Assembly: GCA_032433595.1 (NCBI GenBank)
Contig: JASWJB010000011.1
Location: 186,001 to 250,000 of the forward strand
Direction: 5' to 3'
DNA: 64,000 nucleotides
Source of the DNA: Conoideocrella luteorostrata
Lineage: Eukaryota > Ascomycota > Sordariomycetes > Hypocreales > Clavicipitaceae
Positions 49,769 through 53,594 of the stretch are shown piece by piece; positions within the stretch are counted from its first letter, which is position 1; each line of letters starts with the position of its first letter. The position numbers and the translations under genes are program-made. Below the pieces are notes generated by a model. That model was given only the letters and a program-made list of their open reading frames with translations. It was not told where the DNA came from and did not search any database.

Positions 49769-52700
49769 ATGGAGCTGCACAGAGCTGACGATGCTTCATC
49801 ACTCCACGAGCGAAAGTTTCCCGCTTCTCACGACAGCGCTGTATGCTTCATCCCTTCAGAAGCCGTATGTGCGTCAGTCGACTCGATCAGGTATCTCTAT
49901 GACAATGCATACGAAAAATGGCCACCACACATTAATGTAATCTATCCGTTTGTACGACCTGAAGTTCTGACTGAGGCCGCTGAAATCCTGTGCGAAATGG
50001 ACTTGTCGTCACTGATACCAGAAGGCATTTCCTTATGTGAACCAGACTTCTTCGAAAATCGGGATAAAAATACTGTCATATTGCGTCCGGAACAGCAGCC
50101 AGGCTCGAAATTTGCCTCTGACCTAGTTGAAAACATCCGTCAACATCTAGGTTGGCCAGCGCAAACTAACTCTCAGCTACATATGACTCTCGGGCAGAGC
50201 ATTGTTGATGAGTCGGATACCCATAAGTTTTTACTGGAGAAGGCACGCCTTCTCTGCCCAATTGATTGGGCCATCAGCCATCTGGCCATCCTTATTCGAG
50301 ATCCAGATCCAATGTCAACATCGCCCTCTGAGTCGGGTAGACCAATGCGACTTTGGGGGCGCATAAATGTGCGTAGTCGACAGCTGGAACGGTTCTCACC
50401 CGCAGCGGCCTTCCACAGGAATTCGGTGCAAGAAGCACAGAGACAGGCGACTTTTGAGTTTTCGCCGTCAATAAACTCCTGGCGCCAACTACATCGTCCT
50501 TGTTCAAATGATCAGTCGACATCTGACACCAACCAGATTGACCAACTAATTGTATCCTCATACAACGTTCTTGCCGAATTCGAATGGCCCCCTGATGCAA
50601 GCAGATATCCAACTCTGATATCCTATATTCTGTCAGAGTATGCCGTTTCCGATATACTTGTCCTTCAGGAAGTCACGGATCATTTCCTCCCTTATTTGTT
50701 GCAAAATGCTGATGTATGCAAACGCTACCAATTCTCAACCCACGGGCCTCCAGGTCGCCATGGTATCGGGCCATTACCAAGCCTGCTCAACATTGTAGTG
50801 CTGAGTAAATTTCACTTCAGTTGGGAATACGTTCCATTCGCCCGAAAACATAAGGGCACCCCAGTGCTCAAGTTCATGGGTTTACATATTGCGTCACGCT
50901 CAGGGGCCAAGCCTCTGCCAGTGGTTCTTGCTGCTTGTCACCTTACACAGGGTCTGGTGGATGGCGCAGTGGTTTCCAAAAGGAACGAACTGCTGAGGTT
51001 GTTTAATCATTTGTCCAACCATTTTCCTGATCATCCTTGGGTAATTGCTGGCGATTTCAACCTCGCAACCTCGTCCTTCACAATTGACCTAGCTCGCAGG
51101 AAGGGGCAGCTATCTTTCCGTGGGTACCAGTATTTGTGCGAGATAGATCGAATGGTTGCTGATCATGGTCTTCATGACGCCTGGCTACTCACGCGACTTC
51201 GGTCCGGTGTCTCTCAAGACTCGGTAAATAACACACAATCGCTCGAAGAGTTGCATGAGGGAGAGCAAGGGGCTACCTTTGATCCGTTGGCTAATGATTT
51301 AGCCGCTAAGGCGGTTGGAGGTGGCCTCAACAACCGGCCTCAGAGATATGACCGCATTTTGTTCAATGATGCTTTCTCTCTCAAGGCCTGTGGCTTTAAC
51401 ACATTTGGACGAACTACCTCCCAGGGCGAGCCTAGAACAACACCAGCCAGTGACCACTGGGGAATCCGATGTCTGTTCAGACAATGGGATCATAATGACA
51501 GTGCCGTTAGCCAACCTATCAAAGCTGTGGCTGTAGATTTTCGAAAGGCTCCATCATCTCTTGGCGGCATTGAGGAATTAAAAAAGACACTAGCATCGCT
51601 TGGCTGCTTGCCAACATCACAAGAGGAAAGGGAGAGGACGGAAGCGCTGGAGCTGCTGAAAAGAGTACTATGTTGCGCTGAGCGAGATCAGACATCTCAC
51701 CATCAGTGCCAAGCTATAGATGTTGTTCTCGTTCCAGTAGGCTCATATGGGCTAGGGGTATGGACTCCTGAATCAGATGTGGACTGCTTATGCATTGGCA
51801 ATATTAGCTCAAAGATTTTCTTTACCCTCGCCCTCTCACGGCTGAAGAAGGCAAGACCGGACGGAATCTTAGTCCTCCGGATTGTGCGTGCCAACAATGG
51901 CACTATGCTGGAGTTAAGCGTGTTGGGGATAAAGTTTGACTTGCAATACTGCACAGCTAGCCTTGTTGCAGAAAGGTAAGTGTATGACTTCAATATGAAG
52001 ACAGGCAATGAATAATCACTCATATTAATAGATACCCTGATATCATGAATCATCCGGCCACAGATTCTGCGTTTAGACTGCCGCCTCAAACATTATCCAA
52101 GTTGAAGCCTGCACGGGATCTCGCTTATCTGCGGAGGTCCATTCCGGACATGGCAAAGTATCGCCTATCTCATTTATTTCTCAAGGCATGGGCAAAGTCC
52201 AAAGGTCTGTACTCTGCGAAGTTTGGATTGTTGGGGGGCATCAATATATCCGTGATGCTCGTCCCAATCTGCAAACTACTGGCATATGACGGACAACTCG
52301 TATCAACAGCAGACATTGTGACCACATTCTTTCATTACTATGCAGACTTCAACTGGAAAGAGAGAGTGGTGTTTGATCCACTATTCCACAGCAACATCAA
52401 ATATCACAGAACACATCGCGAGCCCATATGTCTTCTGGGCTGGCATGCGCCATCTCTGAATACAGCACTCAGCGCCTCGACTCCAACTGTGAATACCCTT
52501 TCCGCAGAACTAGCACAAGCTAGAGATCTTCTATCGCAAGGGTTGGTCAATTGGGATGGAATTTTGCGTCGGGGTGAATCTTTATCACTGTCAGAGCTCA
52601 CAGCATGTAGCGCAGTGGATTTTCTACACGCTTACAAAAGCTACATCAAGATTGATGCTCGATATTGGGGCTCATCTCCCAGTAAAGGCAGAAAGTTTAT

Positions 52701-53594
52701 TAGTTGGCTAGAGTCACGATGTGTAATGGTTCTAGTAGGTGAGTGATGCCTGCTTCTTCCAGGCTACTTTATCAGGAGGCCCCTCCCTCCCCTTTTCCCA
52801 TTTCGTTTCCTGGGGCTATCTTTCCTCGCGACTGACCTAAACTCAATCAAAAAGACGTTAATCGAAAGGCACCGACTCTGATGACGCGTATTTGGCCGGC
52901 AAAGTTTGCGCCTGAAGTCCTCGAGGCTCCTGACCCGGCCGGCAATGAATGTCACAGCAGCTACCTCATAGGGCTAGAGTGGCAGGTTGGGCAATCAACT
53001 AACAGGACAAAGGATCAAACCAAAGTTATAGAGCAAGCTTTGTATAGTGTTCTCCAGGAATTCGAAAGTCGCATACGTAGTGACTCGAGGTATTTTGATC
53101 AAAAATCTTGCTGGGTAATGGCATCGGTGGTCAGTGGTAGTAATGTGCGAAACCTGCAGCTTGATCCTCAGCCTTGGTCGGAAGAAAACGCAGGGGAGAC
53201 AGACTCCGGAGAAGACTTTAATCTAGATGAGGAAGAGATACGTACTGATGTGGGCGAAATTACAGCAGCAATCCCAAAATCTCTGGACGAGAACTCCATG
53301 CAAAACGATGCTGCAGTGAGGAAAACAGAAGGATCTGGGAAGCTTCGCACAGCGGCAGATGTCATGAACCGTCTTCGCTGGGATCCAGCCATGGACCCCA
53401 GTAACTACATGATCGGTTATGAGGACAGGTTTACTGGGACTCAAGAGAAAGCCTTGGAGCAATGGAAAGGGGACCAGACTGATGAAGAGTTTATTCCTCA
53501 ACATCGAATCATGTACTTTAAACGAACAAGCGACAATACCATTGTGTGGGAGCGAAGGAAGCGGGTTGATGATATATTTGGCAGTGGCGTTTAG
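49769..53594 (+). CDS. Multidomain RNA end-processing/repair protein: 2H phosphoesterase + EEP nuclease + poly(A)-polymerase-type nucleotidyltransferase + DUF504
   Basis: Three exons: 49769-51975, 52032-52738 and 52855-53594; 1217 residues. (1) 2H/LigT-like domain, about 25-205: PPHINVIYPF (His54) and QLHMTLG (His138-x-Thr140), AKAP7/LENG9-like; these act on cyclic phosphate or 2'-5' bonds. (2) Endonuclease/exonuclease/phosphatase domain, about 258-575: SSYNVLAEF (Asn266), LQEV (Glu301), AGDFNL (Asp429, Asn431) and SDHWG (Asp562, His563). (3) Pol-beta-type nucleotidyltransferase, about 650-735: VGSYGLGVWTPESDVD (Gly658-Ser659; Asp670 and Asp672) with a third carboxylate in KFDLQYC (Asp724). 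It is followed by a poly(A)-polymerase central domain (LFLKAWAKSKGLYSAKFGLLGG). (4) DUF504/MJ1316 domain, about 1140-1210 (NRLRWDP, IGYEDR). All parts handle RNA ends. A role in trimming, healing and re-tailing cleaved RNA is inferred. The frame closes across both introns. Confidence 0.88.

Follow-up and report, generated by a model that had tools for sequence, protein, structure and literature searches.

In a 64,000-nucleotide window of the genome of the clavicipitaceous fungus Conoideocrella luteorostrata (assembly GCA_032433595.1, contig JASWJB010000011.1, positions 186,001 to 250,000), a plus-strand gene at positions 49769-53594 encodes one polypeptide in which a 2H phosphoesterase, an EEP domain, a nucleotidyltransferase with a poly(A) polymerase (PAP) core and an MJ1316 (DUF504) domain follow one another (Table 1), and which we regard as a candidate RNA 3'-end processing enzyme. 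The frame opens with an ATG at 49769, its stop codon ends at 53594, and splicing of the three exons reproduces the single 1217-residue protein described in the initial annotation of this DNA. Both introns, at 51976-52031 (56 nucleotides) and 52739-52854 (116 nucleotides), are of the GT-AG type, and this two-intron structure is probable from the frame, the splice consensus and the homologues. A Pfam profile search of the protein, with matches taken to E 1 and judged against the curated cut-offs, upheld the union of four modules in one chain: MJ1316, 2_5_RNA_ligase2, PAP_central, Exo_endo_phos and NTP_transf_2 all scored above cut-off. The same search found no ligase or kinase domain in the 1217 residues. 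The motif positions given previously were accurate (H138/T140, N266, E301, D429, D562-H563, G658-S659, D670, D672 and D724; NRLRWDP from residue 1143 and IGYEDR from 1158), and we add to them H54-x-N56 as first 2H motif, the EEP residues H391 and D528, and a PAP-like C-terminal region at residues 901-1075.

The architecture is that of a widespread fungal family and not a one-off, as a protein database search revealed. A total of 661 proteins pass E 0.001, and the conservation counts given here cover the best 120 of the 661, the nearer part of the family, the domain content of which was read by eye from precomputed Pfam matches. PF13563, PF03372, PF04928 and PF04457 are found together in 113 of them; the seven exceptions lack 2H (P0001, P0058), MJ1316 (P0071) or a precomputed EEP match (P0079, P0083, P0093, P0107). 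N266 and D528 align in 120/120, including the relatives without a precomputed EEP match. Intactness was assessed at 17 positions that we take to be catalytic from what is known of the families, residue 56 counting as intact if Asn, Thr or Ser and residue 140 if Thr or Ser. All 17 are intact in 109 relatives; gaps account for four of the other 11 (P0001, P0002, P0058, P0068) and substitutions for seven (P0003, P0048, P0065, P0067, P0069, P0093, P0107). In the C. luteorostrata protein the checked residues are present in both sequence and alignment. The earlier view of an enzyme rather than a relic thus fits this protein, but is qualified for the family by the seven substituted relatives. Mean identity to the query peaks in the MJ1316 segment (0.68), followed by the PAP central domain (0.60), the EEP and nucleotidyltransferase domains (0.52 each), the PAP C-terminal region (0.43), the 2H domain (0.41) and the linker (0.29).

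The 2H signature consists of two H-x-(T/S) motifs; those of the present protein read H54-x-N56 (HIN) and H138-x-T140 (HMT), and H54 is kept in 117/120 and H138 in 116/120 aligned relatives. Residue 56 (49934-49936) is Asn in 95 relatives, Thr in 22 and a gap in 3; the 22 rows with Thr are all named Trichoderma. A pairing of DUF504 with an AKAP7-type 2H domain, as in LENG9, had been brought up as a parallel. The 2H matches obtained here do not support an AKAP7-type domain; they are PF13563 and, with the family profile against the PDB, Bacillus subtilis BSU11850 (2d4g, E 1.9e-7). The AKAP7 profile PF10469 does not appear among the protein's Pfam matches with E of 1 or less and was precomputed for one relative, P0126.

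The EEP domain belongs to its superfamily by its PF03372 match, its fold and its N/E/D-x-N/D/D-H active site, and carries the full set N266, E301, H391, D429, N431, D528, D562 and H563, of which H391 and D528 are presumably catalytic. Fold comparison identified a TDP2-like catalytic fold, and Nocturnin, PDE12 and CNOT6L fall about 4 Z units below TDP2 among the best 50 rows. Of the two EEP examples named in the initial annotation, Tdp2 and Ccr4, the domain is in fold nearer to TDP2 than to Ccr4-type enzymes. ANGEL2 is not among the best 50 rows, which excludes nothing. Comparison by sequence was less informative: a phmmer search of the PDB with the EEP segment returned four chance-level matches only (E 0.84-0.95), and the family profile of the domain weak TDP2 matches only (E 0.32-0.99).

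The polymerase-like part has the canonical PAP layout, i.e. a palm with GS (G658-S659) and three aspartates (D670, D672, D724), a central domain and a C-terminal domain in PAP order, the last of these recognized by alignment and homologue fold. In the palm, NTP_transf_2 (PF01909; residues 651-683, E 3.5e-5) is above its cut-off, and PAP_NTPase (PF20750; residues 602-725, E 2.1e-5) reaches 24.9 bits, under the curated cut-off of 27. The C-terminal region has no Pfam match of its own in this protein; the profile alignment to PAP gamma covers it, running to chain residue 458, and the homologue P0070 matches a whole PAP in fold. A conspicuous change concerns residue 798 (52216-52218), which we assume to lie beside the nucleotide site. 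Here the Asn of the canonical YxN stretch, present in yeast and human PAP, in the other PAP of the same genome and in the relative P0287, is replaced by Ala in 109 of the 120 relatives, Ser in 6, Gly in 4 and Pro in 1. Because this pocket-side Asn is replaced by Ala, the base that the predicted tailing core would add need not be A.

The MJ1316 profile is matched over the whole domain, and the Pfam name of PF04457 itself states cyclic RNA end recognition; we know of no assay of an MJ1316 domain. According to an excerpt of PMC6514570, MJ1316 recognizes RNA 2'-3' cyclic ends and occurs in eukaryotes in diverse fusions to RNA-repair domains (citing Burroughs and Aravind, 2016).

Table 1. Exons and protein domains of the gene, in window coordinates.
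Feature	Residues	Position	Strand	Content or evidence
Exon 1		49769..51975	+	2H, EEP, nucleotidyltransferase palm
Exon 2		52032..52738	+	PAP central domain and start of PAP C-terminal region
Exon 3		52855..53594	+	Remainder of PAP C-terminal region, acidic linker, MJ1316, stop
2H phosphoesterase domain	29-180	49853..50308	+	PF13563 2_5_RNA_ligase2, E 5.1e-19 (protein), 3.4e-19 (genome search)
EEP domain	264-563	50558..51457	+	PF03372 Exo_endo_phos, E 1.5e-8; TDP2-like fold
Nucleotidyltransferase palm	602-725	51572..51943	+	PF01909 above, PF20750 below cut-off; PDB profile to poly(A) polymerases
PAP central domain	780-899	52162..52521	+	PF04928 PAP_central, E 1.1e-9; K787, Y796, A798
PAP C-terminal RNA-binding-like region	901-1075	52525..53165, split by intron 2	+	Alignment; boundaries set by analyst
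MJ1316/DUF504 domain	1136-1205	53346..53555	+	PF04457, E 1.2e-19, profile positions 2-75 of 75

The extent of the gene merits comment, since the top database match, QQS21_001149 of C. luteorostrata itself (P0001; 1079 residues, 100% identity across 89% of the query), starts at our Met139, which falls inside the second 2H motif, after H138 and before T140. The deposited model omits 49769-50182, corresponding to the N-terminal 138 residues, and thereby loses the first 2H motif and the greater part of that domain. In 114 of the 117 relatives with H54, this residue is preceded by 36-75 residues (median 50), and by 53 in the query; because these lengths agree, the comparison supports the ATG at 49769 as a better start than that of the deposited model. 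It is hardly credible that the gene is an artefact in which at least two adjacent genes were wrongly joined. The shorter deposited model of the same species would fit such an error, as would the 72 of 109 new proteins from a search with the N-terminal half that measure 700-760 residues, i.e. end about where intron 1 falls, but entries of this size are what a conserved intron 1 would produce from unspliced open reading frames. Full-length models, moreover, turn up repeatedly across many named genera, the environmental database entries P0144 and P0149 run as one protein from 2H through PAP_central, and P0088, P0094 and P0102 carry the motifs of all modules. On the strength of these recurrent and continuous multi-module relatives we rejected a mistaken joining of two genes.

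The half-protein searches, which score only candidates sharing most words, gave 110 proteins for the N-terminal half (109 of them new) and 111 for the C-terminal half, and genera named among the relatives include Trichophyton, Uncinocarpus, Mytilinidion, Pyrenophora and Candelina. "DUF455 domain protein", the deposited name of several of the relatives, may be a carried-over misname. By Pfam, the divergent relatives P0203, P0279, P0227 and P0229 have 2H, EEP and PAP-type matches and no MJ1316 match, P0281 has EEP, PAP and MJ1316 without 2H, and P0246 has PAP and MJ1316 only. P0287, from a eukaryote transcriptome, has EEP, PAP with a PAP_RNA-bind match and MJ1316, and no 2H; its MJ1316 domain is 44% identical to the query (E 1.3e-18) and its EEP domain matches at E 3.0e-6. 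P0287 leads us to infer that an EEP-PAP-MJ1316 core also occurs beyond the named fungi. Viral and prokaryote contigs scanned with the family alignment gave 21 and 30 pattern-matching stretches, respectively, and no relative by tblastn, a weak negative as two peptide patterns were used for each.

Within the genome, MJ1316 (PF04457) and PF13563 have one match each, both in this gene, and EEP has 15 including this one. The three PAP_central matches fall in this gene and at one other locus, a canonical PAP gene (G000:C10); because of the latter, this gene is unlikely to be the housekeeping PAP, and we rejected that identity. Of the Trl1 modules, the ligase domain RNA_lig_T4_1 (PF09511) was searched and has one strong match elsewhere, and RtcB had no match in the genome profile search. 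The downstream neighbour encodes an Exo70 exocyst subunit (54193-55896, minus strand; Pfam E 7.8e-103), and an upstream plus-strand open frame of 346 codons (48257-49297) has no Pfam match at E 0.01; neither neighbour suggests a functional partner.

RNA cut by many nucleases ends in a 2',3'-cyclic phosphate, the kind of end on which 2H enzymes act, and PAP-type enzymes require a 3'-OH. We propose, at a probability of about 45%, that the protein is a single-chain RNA 3'-end processing enzyme that recognizes, opens, dephosphorylates or trims, and tails; substrate, step order, tail base and biological role are what we infer. MJ1316 would hold an RNA that after cleavage ends in a 2',3'-cyclic phosphate, and the 2H domain would open this cycle to give a monophosphate. 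The EEP domain, TDP2-like in fold, could then strip the phosphate or trim the last nucleotide to yield a 3'-OH, to which the canonical-type PAP core would add a nucleotide tail. The tail may allow rescue of the fragment or mark it for decay, and the protein and the genome's Trl1-type ligase may be competitors. Tailing, with either outcome, is more likely than sealing, since the chain has no detected ligase domain and the genome has a separate Trl1-type one. ANGEL2, an EEP enzyme, is reported to convert 2',3'-cyclic-phosphate ends to 2',3'-OH via a 2'-phosphate (excerpt of PMC13247085; its removal of cyclic phosphates also in an excerpt of PMC12265940), and the chemistry of cyclic-phosphate removal therefore exists in the EEP superfamily. 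Healing and re-extension of RNA 3' ends, as put forward in the initial annotation, is still the best reading of the module set. The observations behind it, i.e. domain order, conserved catalytic residues and fold classes, are confirmed, and the interpretation itself is partly supported. More tentatively, a ligase-free polypeptide might capture cyclic-phosphate RNA, de-block it to a 3'-OH and re-tail it beside Trl1 sealing, with an EEP-PAP-MJ1316 core that, to judge by P0287, predates filamentous fungi and a 2H domain later gained or lost.

Several observations weigh against a dedicated 3'-end enzyme. The nearest EEP fold is that of TDP2, a 5'-tyrosyl phosphodiesterase, and other EEP folds are close behind it (4ruw, 22.6; human neutral sphingomyelinase, 22.4; best 50 rows), such that fold does not settle the substrate. 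The first 2H motif is HxN rather than HxT/S in the query and most relatives. A nucleotidyltransferase Asp is lost in P0003 and in each of the three Beauveria relatives that the 120 contain (P0065, P0067 and P0069, each with D724 changed to Asn; P0065 additionally with D670 and N431 changed to His), and an EEP carboxylate is lost in P0048 and P0093. The Beauveria nucleotidyltransferase looks from its residues as if inactive, and because of such losses some modules may not be used in every species. Among seven divergent relatives scanned, four lack an MJ1316 match and three a 2H match; these may be partial gene models, or the modules may not always occur together. The full-length homologue model has a predicted template modelling score (pTM) of 0.47, and nothing therefore speaks for active sites turned towards each other.

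One rival reading, which we consider rather unlikely, is that the protein serves surveillance and decay and not repair. It would act on the 5' fragments that mRNA cleavage leaves, or on tRNAs cleaved during ribosome quality control, produce a 3'-OH on them and add a short A-tail, by which they pass to the exosome. The absence of a detected kinase or ligase domain from the chain would suit this role. An excerpt of PMC12265940 reports that Angel1, an EEP protein, limits the rate of non-stop mRNA decay, that 2',3'-cyclic phosphates are the predicted products of the cleavage in this pathway, and that P-site tRNA can keep such an end. However, the same source reports no cyclic-phosphate build-up in a reporter upon Angel1 depletion, and the EEP domain here is TDP2-like in fold, without demonstrated likeness to Angel. 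The fold itself would permit action at the 5' end, on an adduct linked there or on the end as such, and the protein would then handle both RNA ends or RNA-protein links; we judge this improbable, as identity to TDP2 is about 20%, a shared fold is no proof of function, and 2H, PAP and MJ1316 by established knowledge concern 3' ends. Very doubtful is an enzyme of 2'-5' oligonucleotides, in which 2H and EEP would cleave the 2'-5' oligoadenylate that the polymerase-like module makes or extends. Such activity is known for 2H proteins and for the EEP protein PDE12, and the Pfam title of the 2H match is "2'-5' RNA ligase superfamily". We nevertheless rejected it as unlikely given that PAP matches lead; the absence of 2'-5' oligoadenylate synthetase (OAS) from the best 50 fold rows excludes nothing.

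If the step order of the proposed 3'-end enzyme is true, many filamentous fungi have in one protein all that is needed to convert cleaved RNA with blocked ends into tailed RNA. Its study would then reveal the fate of un-religated RNA cut by ribotoxins, Ire1-type nucleases and ribosome quality control, and offer a direct handle on the MJ1316 domain. MJ1316-RNA-repair fusions in eukaryotes are already in print, as the excerpt cited above makes clear, and we do not claim the exact fungal architecture as undescribed. Added here are the support for a longer gene model, the TDP2-like EEP fold, the canonical-PAP tailing core with an altered residue, the intact-site count and the 2H-less relative.

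The protein resembles several known systems in part. With TDP2 the likeness is one of fold alone, and the fungal EEP domain differs in being fused to RNA 3'-end modules. ANGEL2 and the CCR4 family are of the same superfamily and ANGEL2 performs the very step proposed here, from 2',3'-cyclic phosphate to OH, whereas the CCR4-family members Nocturnin, PDE12 and CNOT6L score lower than TDP2 in fold. LENG9, a CCCH finger with a cyclic-end (MJ1316) domain, likewise joins MJ1316 to other RNA modules, while no PAP or EEP is named for it in an excerpt of PMC9635633. BSU11850 (2d4g) shares with the fungal protein the PF13563 match, and the latter has two H-x-(N/T) motifs, but the fungal family usually has HxN at the first motif and is fused. 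Canonical PAPs (PAPOLA/PAPOLG, yeast Pap1, Pla1) are without the 2H, EEP and MJ1316 modules and have Asn two residues after the Tyr of YxN, where the fungal family mostly has Ala. Trl1-type tRNA ligase, which heals and seals 2',3'-cyclic-phosphate ends, is likewise a multi-module chain for such ends; the fungal chain differs in having no ligase or kinase match, the RNA_lig_T4_1 domain of this genome being encoded separately.
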